DNA of 33,853 nucleotides from a virus: IMG/VR virus record IMGVR_UViG_3300047469_000410, positions 1 through 33,853 of that record, one strand, 5' to 3'. The notes beneath the pieces were generated by a model. It worked only from the letters and a program-made list of their open reading frames with translations, did not search any database and had not been told where the DNA came from. Position 1 is the first letter of the stretch, and each line of letters starts with the position of its first letter. Shown piece after piece: positions 12,855-24,854 of this stretch. Both the position numbers and the translations under genes were made by a program.

Positions 12855-13193
12855 ATGCGTGTTATTTCGAAGGCCGTATGTCTAGTTGCTTTGGTCGCGC
12901 TCAGTAATTTGGGGCAGACCCAAGCGGCTACCGAGGATCACGACATCGCTGTAACCATGGTGGCTATGGGGCGCATGTGTGCAGAACAAGATCCTGGAAT
13001 GAATTACTCGCTGCAGAACATCTTTTCCCTTCCAGACATAGCGGCAAATGCAGATCTAAAGAAGGAGATTCTTGCGGTAGATACCAATCCGGCATTTCAG
13101 GATGAAATCAAGGCAGTTCAAGTGCAGGCCGCAGGGGATCCGTCGGCAGCAAAACAGTTCTGCCCGAGCTATGCGCCGAAAGCTAGCAAGTAA
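12855..13193 (+). CDS. Small exported protein (moron)
   Basis: A 112-residue protein with a clear Sec signal peptide: basic start MRVISK, hydrophobic AVCLVALVALSNLG, cleavage expected after TQA at about residue 24. The mature part is about 88 residues with two Cys (MCAEQDPG and QFCPSYAP) that could form one disulfide in the periplasm. AAGGA precedes the ATG. It lies against the leftward operon, with its own promoter-like sequence and a terminator after it, which makes it a self-contained lysogenic-conversion gene. No family is recognised; an envelope or phage-exclusion role is a guess. Confidence 0.85.
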   Translation: MRVISKAVCLVALVALSNLGQTQAATEDHDIAVTMVAMGRMCAEQDPGMNYSLQNIFSLPDIAANADLKKEILAVDTNPAFQDEIKAVQVQAAGDPSAAKQFCPSYAPKASK

Positions 13194-13198
13194 TCTGT

Positions 13199-13232
13199 CC
13201 CAGGCCCGCTACTGGCGACGGCCTGGGTTTCT
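13199..13232 (+). terminator. Intrinsic terminator of the secreted-protein gene
   Basis: CCCAGGCC (13199-13206) pairs with GGCCTGGG (13220-13227), followed by TTTCT. It is six bases after the stop codon of the gene at 12855. Confidence 0.7.
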
Positions 13233-13475
13233 AGCATCAAATTGTCGACGTGCGTGGGGGGTGGCCTACCTCATTCGGCCGATGCGCGGTGACATCGACG
13301 GCCTACTGTCCGCTGCCTGTATGAGTGATGGGCGCCGGCCTTCAGGCTTGCCGCGCCGCGCAGGTGAATCGCTCTCTGCTACATGGCTGCCAATCCTCTG
13401 ATTGAAGGCAACTGCCAAGAAATCCTCGGTAGTTGGTGGGGATGCAGGTGGGCGGTTATAGGCCGCAGTTTCGTC

Positions 13476-13594
13476 CGCATCGGGGTGTAATCTGGCCGGG
13501 GCTCAGCCGGCATTCGGCAGAAGGGGTAGCCCTGTAGGCGACCGATTGGCACATCCGCTGCCCGAGACTTAGCCTCAGATCACACCCCGATGCG
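13476..13594 (-). ncRNA. Long-stem structured RNA candidate (or mini-element with terminal inverted repeats)
   Basis: A 19-nt arm at 13476-13494 pairs with 13576-13594. The only imperfection is A-C on the plus strand but a G-U wobble on the minus strand, so the minus transcript would form an unbroken stem. Inside, minus-strand hairpins include GCCGG-7 nt-CCGGC and AGGG-CUA-CCCU. CTGCCCGA (13558-13565) and TCGGGCAG (13610-13617) can also pair across one arm, as an alternative or pseudoknot. The whole 13235-13647 stretch has no convincing gene. A transposon remnant with terminal repeats is the main alternative; no target duplication is visible. Confidence 0.45.
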
Positions 13595-13647
13595 CTCTCA
13601 TAGAGAGGATCGGGCAGTTAACGACAGGCTGTCGTGGCGCTGGTTGT

Positions 13648-14412
13648 TCAGTCGTAGATGCCGTAGCTGAAGTCATCCTCATCGCAGTCGACGATGATTT
13701 TGGATTTACCGAAGTAAAGAGCAGCGACCATCTTTTCGAATGGAGAGCGGAATTTCAGGGTCTGGCTGATTTTCTCGTTGTCGATTTTGGCGGCGTACAC
13801 CGAGCCAACCTCATGACCGTTTTCGTTACGGTCTTTCCCGTGACGGTCGAAGCTGATGTGAATCGCGTTGTCGAGCATGTATTCGCTGCGCTCGGAGCTT
13901 CGGGAGTAGGTCGAAATCCCATGATCCTTTGGCTTCTTGTCGAAGTAGATGTGCAGGCCACCGTAGTCGGATGGCTGGAAACGGATGTCCGGGGCTTCCC
14001 AATGCTCTTCCGCCGCCGACTCTTTGTGGTCTTCGACGAAAGCTTCCAGCAGATCCTGCAAACTGATTACCTCAGGCAACGCATCCTTGTTCAGCACCTC
14101 ATCGATCTGCTTCTGCGCCAGGCGCACCATGTCAGCTTCGACTCCACTGTTTTCCCACTTCTCTTTCAATGCAGCCGCAACCATCGCGTTGTAGCGAGTC
14201 AGCTCAAAGATTTCAGTCAAATTGGCTGGCAGTGCGGCCTTGATTGCCTCCTCGACCTGCTTGCCCATGTCGCCGTAACGACCGAAGCAGTTATCGATCA
14301 CGCTGGTGAACATCTTCTTAACGTGCTCGTCGATGATTTCGACTGGCTTTTCGCTGTTTGCAAAAGCAGTGACGCGCTCGGCGAGAAGCGATTGAAGTGT
14401 TTGTTCGCTCAT
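13648..14412 (-). CDS. Phage early protein of unknown function
   Basis: A 254-residue protein, the first long gene of the leftward operon. The ATG at 14412 has GGAG seven bases upstream; an in-frame start 13 codons earlier is rejected. The N-terminal two-thirds are helical and acidic (VEIIDEHVKKMFTSVIDNCFGRYGDMGKQVEEAIKAALPANL, then ALKEKWENSGVEADMVRLAQKQIDEVLNK). The C-terminal part is strand-rich (GGLHIYFDKKP, AIHISFDRHGKD) and ends in an acidic tail (VDCDEDDFSYGIYD). Two-domain organisation is clear but I do not recognise the family. Confidence 0.85.
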   Translation of the reverse strand: MSEQTLQSLLAERVTAFANSEKPVEIIDEHVKKMFTSVIDNCFGRYGDMGKQVEEAIKAALPANLTEIFELTRYNAMVAAALKEKWENSGVEADMVRLAQKQIDEVLNKDALPEVISLQDLLEAFVEDHKESAAEEHWEAPDIRFQPSDYGGLHIYFDKKPKDHGISTYSRSSERSEYMLDNAIHISFDRHGKDRNENGHEVGSVYAAKIDNEKISQTLKFRSPFEKMVAALYFGKSKIIVDCDEDDFSYGIYD

Positions 14413-14641
14413 TTGATGCTCCGTGCTTGATCGGTTGTTTTCCCAATGCACCCGTCACCAGGTGCATCAGTGAAAATTTCCGCTGATCCTTCGGCGCTAC
14501 TGGCGCGGTACAGATCGATTCAAGTTGTTCCTCCAGCCGCGGGCCTTTCGGCTTGTTCTCCCGCTGGATAACTGCTTTCGACGTTTTACGCTGCACGCCC
14601 GGGTCAGTTGCCAACCCTCTGAACCGTTGAGGCCGGTTCAT
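14318..14641 (-). CDS. Basic leader ORF, candidate N-type antiterminator
   Basis: A 107-residue, very basic ORF, the first on the PL transcript. AAAGG lies five bases before the ATG at 14641; the frame is open further upstream, into the operators, but those starts lie before the expected RNA start. Arg/Lys-rich segments (NRPQRFRG, RENKPKGPR) could bind RNA as lambda N does, and boxA- and boxB-like elements precede it. Against it, the last 31 codons overlap the well-started 254-residue gene in another frame, and its sequence does not resemble N of lambda or P22. The leader may instead be non-coding. Confidence 0.35.
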   Translation of the reverse strand: MNRPQRFRGLATDPGVQRKTSKAVIQRENKPKGPRLEEQLESICTAPVAPKDQRKFSLMHLVTGALGKQPIKHGASNERTNTSIASRRARHCFCKQRKASRNHRRAR

Positions 14642-14659
14642 CGCTGCCTTTGAGTCTGG

Positions 14660-14676
14660 GCCGGTGGTGATCCGGC
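14660..14676 (-). promoter_or_regulatory. boxB-like hairpin in the PL leader
   Basis: On the minus strand GCCGG and CCGGC form a 5-bp stem with a 7-nt loop (AUCACCA), 18 nt downstream of the boxA-like sequence. Stem length fits a nut boxB; the loop is longer than the usual five or six bases. Confidence 0.35.
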
Positions 14677-14694
14677 AAGGTGAAGCGGTGGATC

Positions 14695-14703
14695 TAAAGA
14701 GCG
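14695..14703 (-). promoter_or_regulatory. boxA-like antitermination element
   Basis: The minus strand reads CGCTCTTTA, identical to the boxA consensus bound by NusB-S10, about 45 nt into the predicted PL transcript. Confidence 0.5.
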
Positions 14704-14752
14704 GCGGGTCTGTTGGCCCTTCGCAGTGGATGTGGGTCGCTGCGATGGATGA

Positions 14753-14781
14753 AATATAGGCACTCCCATATTTACTGTCAA
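14753..14781 (-). promoter_or_regulatory. Leftward early promoter PL
   Basis: The minus strand reads TTGACA (14781-14776), a 17-bp spacer and TATATT (14758-14753): a perfect -35 and a five-of-six -10. RNA would start near 14746 and run into the leftward operon. Repressor-type operators cover both hexamers. Confidence 0.88.
14755..14770. promoter_or_regulatory. Left operator OL2
   Basis: The 16-bp TATAGGCACTCCCATA closely matches the operator at 18581 (TACGGGCGCTCCCATA, differing at three positions) and covers the -10/spacer of PL. Confidence 0.75.
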
Positions 14782-14868: not shown

Positions 14869-15279
14869 CTACACCGCCTGCTGTTCCAAATCAGAGCCAC
14901 AGTATCGGCACTTCTTGGCGGCGGCCTTGATGGTCTCCGCGCAGAACGGGCATTCCTTGCTCGCAGCAGCGGCAGCAAGATCCTCGGCGTAAGTCGTGGT
15001 CTCGACCGGACGGGCATAGTGGATCGCGGGCTTGTTGAGTGCCCAGATGAAAGCCGCAACCCAGCCGATAAAAGTCCAGCCAGCGAGGAGGTTTAGCGCG
15101 AAGATCGGGGTGGCCCTGGGGTGTTCGCCCACAGCGCAGATTGTCGGGTAGAAGTACAGCGCGATCACGCTAGGAAAAAAAACGATGCTTGCGACCATTG
15201 CAAAGCCGTTGGTGCCGCTCCCGATCAGGTAGCTGACTAGGCAAACAATACCGAGCAGAATCAGGCCTACGATCTTCAT
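14869..15279 (-). CDS. Superinfection-immunity membrane protein with C-terminal zinc ribbon
   Basis: A 136-residue inner-membrane protein. Hydrophobic segments lie at about 3-20, 26-45 and 57-80. The last, PRATPIFALNLLAGWTFIGWVAAFIWAL, is the signature of the phage superinfection-immunity (T4 Imm-like) family, which blocks DNA entry of related phages. The C-terminus carries CPFCAETIKAAAKKCRYCG, a CxxC-CxxC zinc ribbon. GGAGG precedes the ATG. It lies between OL and cI, where lambda keeps rex, so it should be expressed in the lysogen. Confidence 0.92.
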   Translation of the reverse strand: MKIVGLILLGIVCLVSYLIGSGTNGFAMVASIVFFPSVIALYFYPTICAVGEHPRATPIFALNLLAGWTFIGWVAAFIWALNKPAIHYARPVETTTYAEDLAAAAASKECPFCAETIKAAAKKCRYCGSDLEQQAV

Positions 15280-15694: not shown

Positions 15695-16216
15695 CTAAAA
15701 TAACTTAAAGGAAAAATCAGTGTTTGAGTGATCACACAAAACGTCATAAACGAAATGTGTTTTAACGCCAAAGTTTGCTGCGGCATCTGGAATTTGTATT
15801 TTATTTCGTCGTTCGGGTTTGCTTAGTTCGTGGGTGATGATTTCTTGGCCGTAGGCCATCGCTGTAGCGATTAAAAAGGCGTCTGCTATGTCAGCGCGGG
15901 CGAATTCTTTTTTTGCAGGTTCGGTAAAATGGCTATTGGCTGCGGTCCACTTCATTATTTCTTTATATTTAGAGAGTACCCTCGGGTCAGTGTCGTCGGG
16001 CATGAAAAACGTAGAAGGAAGTTGCAGTGCCCATTTCCGTACTGGGTCATCATCTTTGCCCTTTAACAGCTCTTCTTTAACTTTGGACGTCGAACAAACG
16101 ACCCCGCTTGCATGAGCGCGCTCAACCCACGTCCAAAAGTGATTGCAGAATTCAAACCGATAATGAAGATTTTTGGCCTGCAAAAATATATTCGAATCGA
16201 CTAGATATTTATGCAT
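15695..16216 (-). CDS. DUF4411 PIN-like nuclease
   Basis: A 173-residue protein of the DUF4411 family, whose fold is related to PIN ribonucleases. The start is YLVDSNIFLQAKNLHY, with Asp7 as the first acidic ligand. Then come EELLKGKDDDPVRKWA and ADIADAFLIATAMAYGQEIITHE, giving further acidic residues around 128-132 and the conserved last block. PIN proteins usually act as RNases and toxins. It overlaps the end of the ImmA/IrrE gene by 8 bp without a good ribosome site, so the pair is coupled. ImmA/IrrE with DUF4411 is a recurrent gene pair with predicted toxin-antitoxin or defence function. The region is visibly AT-richer than the phage core. Confidence 0.9.
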   Translation of the reverse strand: MHKYLVDSNIFLQAKNLHYRFEFCNHFWTWVERAHASGVVCSTSKVKEELLKGKDDDPVRKWALQLPSTFFMPDDTDPRVLSKYKEIMKWTAANSHFTEPAKKEFARADIADAFLIATAMAYGQEIITHELSKPERRNKIQIPDAAANFGVKTHFVYDVLCDHSNTDFSFKLF

Positions 16217-17339
16217 GGCTGCGAATGTTCTTATTGTAAAGGTTGGTAACTGTGCCTGGGTTTACATTCAGAAGTCTAGCCGCGTCTCGCATTAGGGTGC
16301 TTCCTTCCATGGCGCTTCGAACTAATGCATTAGTTACTTTTTTGCTGTTTCGTACAGGTATGGTAGCGTAAGGGTTGCCCCCGCCCCCAGCGGCTTTGAA
16401 GCTGTTTGCATACAGAGAGCCGTACACCTCTTTGTTTATCTTTCCCAGCTCATATGCTCTGCGGCCGACTACCAGTCTGCTAACGCGAAAATATTTGCTT
16501 GCGCGATCAATAGCCTCTAATCCGCCGCCTTCCCAAACTGATAGGAATTCGGATCTCGGTACCAAGAGCTCTGCTGCCACGCGATTGCAATAGGATTCAA
16601 CATTGCTGTCAGATGTAAAATCTTTTGGGGAGGGGATATCCGAAACACCACTTTCTCCGATCCATATATGAGCGACTTCGTGAGCTAAAGTAAATATCCA
16701 CGCCGCTTCGGCATCCTTTCCATTAATGAACACTGCCGGAGCAAACTGGTTGCAGATGGCAAAGCCTCTGAATTCCGAAACCGATAACGCTCGCTTAGTA
16801 TTGCTTTTAACTATTCCGCTCTTGAATACAAGAATTCCAGCGGATTCGAAGCGCTCAGAAAGCACTCGAAAATATTCTTCTGGATTGGCGCAGCTTCTCT
16901 TCAAATCTTGGGTAATTTCGCAGCGAGCAGCGATTTCTTGCGCAACCATTTCGACGCCGTTCGATGTGTCGTATTTTCCGACAAAATCTAATGGCTCAGC
17001 ACCTACCTCCCGAAGATAGTCAAGATACCAGTCTTGCTTGGCTATCACGTCTTCCAAAACCTCGAAGAAATCCGAGCCTAATGGGTTTGGGCTCGACACT
17101 TGCCGCATATCAGGCAACCGAGGTTTTTCTATTTCGGGAGGACTATCCAATAACAGATAACCAAACGGAGTTCGCGTCGTCGACGCTACTTTCTCTAGCT
17201 GGCGTATCGTCAGCTCACCGGTCAGGAATTTATCTATCCCACGTCCCGAGGCAATCGAGGATGCGAGATCCTCAAGCGTCTTGCCAATCTGGCTTGCAGC
17301 CCAGTCTAGAACAGATGGGGAGATGGTAAGCGTATCCAT
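16209..17339 (-). CDS. ImmA/IrrE-family metallopeptidase with helix-turn-helix
   Basis: A 376-residue regulator-protease. Residues 1-65 form the Xre-like DNA-binding part typical of this family (LDWAASQIGKTLEDLA, then LEKVASTTRTPFGYLLL). The gluzincin motif HEVAH is at 220-224 with a likely third ligand Glu248 in VESYCNRVAAELLVP. The C-terminus adds a second helix-turn-helix (LMRDAARLLNVNPGTVTNLY, about 349-368). Relatives such as ImmA and IrrE cleave repressors in response to stress. Here it probably controls its DUF4411 partner. The ribosome site is poor; an inverted repeat around a TTGACA lies upstream at 17413-17440. Confidence 0.93.
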   Translation of the reverse strand: MDTLTISPSVLDWAASQIGKTLEDLASSIASGRGIDKFLTGELTIRQLEKVASTTRTPFGYLLLDSPPEIEKPRLPDMRQVSSPNPLGSDFFEVLEDVIAKQDWYLDYLREVGAEPLDFVGKYDTSNGVEMVAQEIAARCEITQDLKRSCANPEEYFRVLSERFESAGILVFKSGIVKSNTKRALSVSEFRGFAICNQFAPAVFINGKDAEAAWIFTLAHEVAHIWIGESGVSDIPSPKDFTSDSNVESYCNRVAAELLVPRSEFLSVWEGGGLEAIDRASKYFRVSRLVVGRRAYELGKINKEVYGSLYANSFKAAGGGGNPYATIPVRNSKKVTNALVRSAMEGSTLMRDAARLLNVNPGTVTNLYNKNIRSHA

Positions 17340-24635: not shown

Positions 24636-24854
24636 ATACCTTGAATTTACCTGTAGCCAGGACAGCCCTCGGGAACGCCTGGACGTCGATAGCCGGACAG
24701 TGCGACGTACGGAAACAACACCGGCAGCCCAGCACTCTGACCTCACATGCTTGCAGAGTGGCGCGAGACTGGATCAGCGAGATCGATGCAAAGGGGCGTC
24801 GACGCTGGGATGGTCTTTGGCCGACAGCTCGGAAAGACGAGCGCACCTATTCAG

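Follow-up and report, generated by a model that had tools for sequence, protein, structure and literature searches.

What lies in the gene-free gap of this phage's early leftward operon, where a long inverted repeat stands, and is the repeat an RNA structure, on which strand, and to what end? The window (the whole 33,853-base virus record analyzed here) has a lambdoid layout, with integrase, methylases, YqaJ and RecT recombination genes on the left side, then a CI-like repressor, and a rightward arm with terminase. The gap lies between a PHROG 2600 gene of unassigned function (13648 to 14451, minus strand) and a plus-strand open reading frame (ORF; 12855 to 13193).

A long stem closes a structured core

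On the minus strand, a 5′ arm at 13593 to 13576 pairs with a 3′ arm at 13494 to 13477 to form 18 bp, and an extra C-G pair (13594 with 13476) extends this to a 19-bp stem closing 119 nucleotides (nt; 13476 to 13594). Its sole imperfect pair is G-U on the minus strand and A-C on the plus strand; an earlier, sequence-only reading had described the stem and this variant pair, and both are exact in the sequence. The stem encloses an 81-nt core (13495 to 13575, minus; “cluster 0”) with a hairpin, a central branched stem and a 3′ hairpin (GCCGG/CCGGC) beside the 3′ arm. The consensus of the 31 relatives in this core class comprises the outer stem plus three inner arms, with 3 of 39 pairs compensated. 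Immediately upstream is a leader, CTGCCCGAT (13594 to 13617, minus), with a CTCTC/GAGAG hairpin and a CCGAT whose complement, ATCGG, stands at the foot of the 5′ arm. Downstream is module B (13441 to 13476, minus), with a GCGG..CCGC hairpin and a terminal GCATC able to pair with GATGC of the 3′ arm; module B is also found at loci without the element (L218, L219 and L226).

Folding of 13450 to 13640 gave a z-score of −3.05 for the minus strand (2 of 200 shuffles as stable) and −2.11 for the plus strand (3 of 200). Folded as one, the whole untranslated stretch of ∼450 nt was slightly above shuffle stability (z = −1.88; 3 of 100 shuffles), and the long stem persisted when the whole gap was folded to minimum energy. 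An alternative fold had also been proposed from CTGCCCGA (13617 to 13610) and TCGGGCAG (13565 to 13558). Both sequences are present in the window, and their pairing is confined to the window's own core class, the partner being absent from the other core types listed.

The stem is conserved as a pairing across Pseudomonas phages

Scans with the arm pattern returned at least 119 viral stretches and 73 stretches in a species-level genome collection; a second arm lay within 300 nt in 115 of the 119 viral matches listed and in 52 of the 73. Nearly all paired stretches in the species collection (51 of 52) were in Pseudomonas records, the exception being L137 (Pantoea sp. Ap-967), whose label may be wrong; 17 other matches in non-Pseudomonas records look like chance, as they are unpaired. 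An exact arm occurred in 20 of 199 Pseudomonas genomes, the arm pattern read backwards matched none of the 199, and 41 genomes picked as positive held one to three arm matches each. Dispersed copies, which would point to a mobile element, were sought across the 199 genomes, and none appeared beyond at most one arm pair per genome. The element is a prophage feature of Pseudomonas phages and not a dispersed repeat. Collapsing identical elements reduced 178 to 160 unique ones among the matches listed, 155 of them with an orientation known from their flanks.

Because the arm pattern biases the arms that it recovers, a second, stem-blind scan used the leader CTGCCCGATCCTCTCNNNGAGAG alone and returned at least 119 stretches in 100 distinct contexts (a second leader form, with nine stretches, entered the local collection only). 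Among the matches listed, the long stem stood directly behind the leader in 93 of the 100; of the other seven, L252, L258 and L320 seem stemless by eye, and in the remainder the element is short, bulged or cut off. The 3′ end was set by a downstream marker (GATGC|GGA) and not by pairing, and the 17 contexts without the marker were dropped. The remaining 83 contexts yielded 42 distinct arm pairs with 27 different 9-nt stem sequences among the matches listed, and 41 of the 42 formed at least 9 of the 11 pairs tested. In this stem-blind set, again among the matches listed, 95.9% of pairs were kept, compared with 32 to 48% in slid controls and a mean of 66% (highest, 75%) in shuffled ones. Changes on both sides were found at 10 of 16 stem pairs (38 distinct arm pairs among the matches listed), these counts being of distinct sequences rather than independent events. 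Pairs 1 to 7 (GCATCGG) are nearly constant, and pairs 8 to 16 covary freely.

Covariation in related prophages, named at the outset as the check on the structure, was thus found, and with relatives included the pairing is far above chance; the outer stem is confirmed as real. Such strong covariation, with compensatory changes beyond both kinds of control, argues that the stem is selected to pair and that the clamp sequence is free to change provided that pairing is kept.

The minus strand is the probable RNA

Several lines of evidence point to the minus strand as the RNA. Unpaired letters are richer in A in the sense direction (39%, versus 23% antisense), and the tRNA-like cores described below are read on this strand. 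Among the matches listed, the first downstream Shine-Dalgarno (SD)-ATG had one to three codons in 45 of 151 contexts in the sense direction and in 6 of 151 on the opposite strand, while intrinsic terminators within 600 nt downstream were found in 34 of 139 sense and 7 antisense. Loci with too little flank were left out of the AUG-stop, terminator, ORF, leader and turnover counts. In five annotated phage records the downstream neighbors of the element are sense-oriented genes (a sixth record is unannotated); in Orimi01 the gene on the other side runs opposite, since the element there directly follows the promoter region.

Two other indicators of strand were discarded. The sequence-only reading had taken the single G-U pair as a sign that RNA structure in the leftward transcript is under selection. 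That argument is weak, and pair 8, which is a sense A-C in 82 of the 155 oriented unique elements among the matches listed, contradicts it and counts against the minus strand; with pair 8 excluded, sense G-U outnumbered sense A-C by 33 to 21 (14 to 7 in the stem-blind set) among the matches listed. ORF length does not show direction either, as 70 of 136 longest upstream ORFs were sense and the other 66 antisense. The claim of a structured leftward RNA nevertheless holds up on other grounds, namely stem covariation, the compensated core pairs, A-rich unpaired positions, and the tRNA-like cores, terminators and AUG-stop sites of the minus strand.

The core is an exchangeable module

The 160 unique elements from the arm scan fell by blastn into 58 unrelated core types of 43 to 179 nt among the matches listed, the core of the window being one of these, and element length across the family ranged from 79 to 215 nt. 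Even among loci whose PHROG 2600 genes are related, the slot is filled by differing cores and stems. Within 330 nt behind the PHROG 2600 gene, a stem was seen by eye in 25 of 37 loci and none in the other 12, so the element is dispensable.

Turnover was assessed in 46 locus pairs whose upstream genes were at least 90% identical (among the matches listed). All 46 had related leaders and 44 were related over the 100 nt just past the element, with the core related in 6 and unrelated in 40. Flanking segments were equally seldom related (5 of 44 pairs for the 1,000 nt upstream; 4 to 6 of 46 for 100 to 300 nt downstream), so the core is replaced as a unit, at a pace typical of this mosaic region as a whole. 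Hypervariability of the core beyond mosaicism was considered because 12 of 14 pairs had unrelated cores despite upstream genes 95% alike, and was rejected, as the control was circular and segments 1,000 nt upstream and 100 to 1,300 nt downstream turn over as much. By these comparisons, the core moves as an ordinary mosaic module.

The core is also separable from its clamp, since seven of the core types recur on a different stem (GCAGATG/CATCTGC); a few are on other paired stems. In the local comparison, which included loci recovered with a 16-mer of a recurrent core hairpin (at least 120 stretches), cores were placed 226 times on the long stem, 35 times on GCAGATG-type stems and 10 times on others, among the matches listed. 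A variant of the slot was observed at L206, L212, L213, L215 and L233, where a stem of GCATCGGAATGTCGG encloses an AUG and a short open frame.

Core folds and likeness to tRNA

Core folds were tallied for those core types whose orientation was known (54 of 58 among the matches listed). A hairpin abuts the 3′ arm in 26 of 54 (antisense, 14; shuffles, 10.4 with a highest value of 16), and both arms are flanked by an abutting hairpin in 20 (shuffle mean, 3.9; highest, 8). Both flanking hairpins were found in 21 of 54, and their loops were complementary beyond all 2,000 permutations, mostly as GCUGA/UCAGC; this loop-loop signal comes largely from that one recurrent pair, and in L056 the two loops are changed yet still match. 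T-loop-like hairpins occurred in 5 of 54 core types and in none antisense (shuffle mean, 0.3; highest, 3). Folding energy of the cores was near shuffle level (mean z = −0.32 sense and −0.35 antisense). The predicted cores are multibranched and compact, with hairpins set against both arms.

One core scored as a tRNA: that of L056 reached 37.2 bits with RF00005 (cut-off, 29), the only core to attain the tRNA cut-off, and it shares a 20-nt exact match with a host tRNA. The L054 core looks tRNA-like by eye and had no Rfam match at E up to 1, and the element of the window fell below the 29-bit RF00005 cut-off (no match at E up to 10). Mimicry of 23S rRNA, suggested by eye for core type 3, was set aside after blastn against one host large-subunit rRNA gave nothing at E of 0.05.

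Comparison with known RNA families

A check against Rfam covariance models (Rfam 15) assigned the window element to no family. Positions 13370 to 13760 gave no match at E up to 10; among further loci, 14 had no match at gathering cut-offs and 12 searched at E up to 10 had nothing at cut-off, leaving the tRNA-like core of L056 as the one exception elsewhere. The whole window at gathering cut-offs returned a single family, Proteo-phage-1 RNA (RF03044; 79 bits), located at 24651 to 24729 on the plus strand.

Y RNA (YrlA) combines a long closing stem with a tRNA-like module. L056 aligns over the whole YrlA model (RF02553) at 25.7 bits, against a cut-off of 69, and the TROVE (Ro60) domain was found weakly in 11 of 199 Pseudomonas genomes and in none of the 20 that bear an arm, so Y RNA was ruled out. 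Skipping-rope RNA (RF02924) was likewise rejected, with 15.7 bits in L056 (E = 0.36; cut-off, 36.7) and no match in 12 further loci. A retron noncoding RNA found no partner, as no reverse transcriptase was among the 18 window proteins scanned against Pfam.

ROOL and GOLLD are ornate RNAs of phages and prophages of ∼660 to >800 nt and, in the portion of the source available, are phage-borne structured RNAs with no assigned function, GOLLD having a conserved and a less conserved region (PMC12286853). According to the same portion, each has one shared architecture, often near tRNA islands (PMC12286853); the element described here is 79 to 215 nt long, occupies a fixed early-operon slot and carries unrelated cores on one clamp. 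The ROOL and GOLLD Rfam models matched neither the window nor the element.

In the literature searched, mostly non-subscription, we recognized no paper describing this RNA. The words Pseudomonas and phage are absent from the main text of two structured-RNA discovery papers (PMC11109978 and PMC8632094), and the partial text of a transcription review (PMC4496710) contains neither put nor boxA. By these comparisons the element is a phage structured RNA, matching no described family and apparently new in having an exchangeable core.

Position within the early transcript

The element occupies an untranslated stretch immediately downstream of the first gene, which itself follows a promoter-like and boxA-like leader. 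The promoter-like sequence (TTGACA-17-TATATT; 14753 to 14781, minus) matches at 11 of 12 positions, where five such sites were found against 4.1 in shuffles, and relatives likewise have promoter-like sequences ahead of this leader (TTGAC-type in 27 of 36 distinct forms). Downstream of it is GCTCTTTAG (14694 to 14702, minus), which we take to be boxA-like, with GCTCTTT followed by A or G in 30 of 36 distinct leader relatives. The stretch from 14585 to 14781 (minus) also contains a small hairpin (TTGCCGG..CCGGC) and a strongly conserved leader, AAGGCAGCGATGAACCGG..GTGCAGCGTAAA, seen in 36 distinct phage leaders, and is probably a nut-like early-left leader RNA. In 14 same-locus pairs the element lay 0.6 to 2.1 kb downstream of the conserved part (1,057 nt in the window).

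Phage lambda offers a similar layout. Its leftward early transcript from PL runs nutL-N-tL1, with tL1 following N; the present locus likewise has a boxA-like site, a first gene and then a structured or terminating region, so that the element sits where tL1 follows N. It differs in being a large clamp-closed RNA and not a terminator.

Behind the element and module B lies an SD-like GAGG with an AUG-UAG start-stop (13379 to 13398, minus), and at many loci an SD is followed by AUG-stop or by AUG-AAA/AAG-stop mini-ORFs. The bar minigenes of lambda are mini-ORFs, and the sites here resemble them in having an SD, a start codon and a stop within one to three codons. The same resemblance extends to the two-codon mini-ORF of axe-txe, which, in the part of the source available, raises expression in cis, possibly by protecting mRNA (PMC8708949). 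The sites here differ from both in lying behind a structured RNA and in often being an AUG directly followed by a stop. Next comes domain D (13228 to 13378, minus), a conserved untranslated domain with 55 distinct relatives (one unrelated row, L328, having been dropped), in which 5 of 27 sense and 4 of 20 antisense consensus pairs are compensated. It contains a hairpin GGCGC..AAGCCUGAAGG..GCGCC, and single-base indels between its relatives argue against a coding region. The ∼450-nt untranslated stretch therefore looks like a chain of RNA domains.

Further long hairpins occur just before start codons in the same early region (e.g., GACCGCATTGGCAGG..CCAATGCGGTC), suggesting more intergenic RNA domains. 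The window also carries overlapping DUF4411 and HTH/IrrE (M78) genes (15695 to 17339, minus), possibly a toxin-antitoxin or immunity pair, near the gene for an Imm_superinfect protein (14869 to 15279).

Possible functions of the element

We favor a role in cis, with a trans-acting tRNA-like decoy as its main rival; the broader option of a phage regulatory RNA, raised in the sequence-only reading, stands as a candidate. Tentatively, and at somewhat short of even chances, the element may be a clamp-closed folded block that shields and delimits the untranslated part of the early transcript. The domain would fold as the early leftward transcript emerges; together, the element, module B, the AUG-stop and domain D would keep nucleases and Rho off ∼450 nt of untranslated RNA, the AUG-stop site could hold a ribosome, and the block would fix the 3′ part of the first message. 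Any compactly folding core would suffice, which would explain why unrelated cores occupy one slot and turn over like neighboring genes. Consistent with this are stem covariation in the leader-only scan, hairpins abutting both arms, A-rich unpaired positions in the sense direction, shared cores on other stems, AUG-stop sites, terminators, the position behind the leader, and the axe-txe precedent (PMC8708949, in the part available). Against it stand core energies near those of shuffles, the A-C at pair 8, the 12 of 37 stemless loci, and the 106 of 151 contexts, among the matches listed, in which the first SD-ATG is not an AUG-stop of one to three codons. Conserved loops and loop-loop complementarity further suggest something more than any compact fold.

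Those loops are part of the case for a trans-acting tRNA-like RNA, which we consider rather unlikely. Here the clamp and neighboring hairpins would set free a small, stable RNA, and its core would act on tRNA-handling enzymes or on RNA-directed phage defense by engaging or diverting them, the many cores reflecting an arms race. The L056 core, with its tRNA score and its 20 nt shared with a host tRNA, would fit this, as would the T-loop hairpins confined to the sense strand, hairpins at D-arm and T-arm positions, and the complementary loops, including the changed but matching pair of L056. Most core types, however, are not tRNA-like, one alone attains the tRNA cut-off, the loop-loop signal is mostly one recurrent pair, and core turnover no faster than that of neighboring segments gives no sign of extra diversification.

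Less probable is an attenuator-like switch, in which the leader CCGAT, the CCGATGC of the 3′ arm and the GCATC of module B would compete for the constant stem base, and folding order would control downstream termination or translation. The near-constancy of pairs 1 to 7 beside freely covarying pairs 8 to 16 speaks for such competition; the leader (with CCCGA in 135 of 145 distinct forms among the matches listed) is complementary to the constant part, which overlaps module B, and terminators follow in 34 of 139 contexts. Yet the competing pairings are without covariation support because the stem base is constant, the long stem is far longer than either competitor and persists in the minimum-energy fold, and the window has no sense-direction gene immediately downstream.

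A slightly weaker candidate is a recombination junction, in which the constant leader, arms and module B would be linkers for exchange of gene-sized modules and the RNA fold would be secondary. The leader and the module B region are related in 46 and 44 of the 46 locus pairs, with cores (6 of 46) and outer segments mostly unrelated, and RecT and YqaJ-type recombinase genes are nearby. A linker needs the same letters and not pairing, though, and pairs 8 to 16 change on both sides and still pair.

A cis-acting antiterminator RNA like put, as put has been described, is very improbable. The element is a structured RNA in the early operon of a lambdoid phage, as that analogy would have it, but it stands behind the first gene and not at the transcript start, its core is not conserved, and the boxA-like site lies ∼1 kb upstream; the option of an antitermination RNA is accordingly disfavored. 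A miniature transposable element, also proposed earlier in view of the two inverted arms, is refuted by copy number (the single arm pairs of the 20 positive genomes among 199, and the one to three arm matches of the 41 chosen positives), by the fixed slot, by changing arm sequences and by unrelated interiors.

Implications for phage mosaicism

Phage mosaicism has been described for protein genes, and here a noncoding RNA domain behaves in a similarly exchangeable way: selection keeps the clamp paired, unrelated folds take the place of the inner one, and other clamps carry the same cores. A bolder extension, which we hold to be speculative and unlikely as it stands, is a combinatorial RNA-domain system in which one fixed slot of lambdoid Pseudomonas phages takes interchangeable clamp-closed cores, some of them tRNA mimics with D-arm- and T-arm-like contacts, that would act as effectors or decoys against differing host RNA-handling or defense machineries and be as exchangeable as accessory protein genes. 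For structural studies the family offers dozens of short natural RNA folds, each self-contained, and it allows a direct test of the purpose that untranslated stretches serve in early phage operons. Should the tRNA-like reading be true, these cores would represent a new class of RNA effector.
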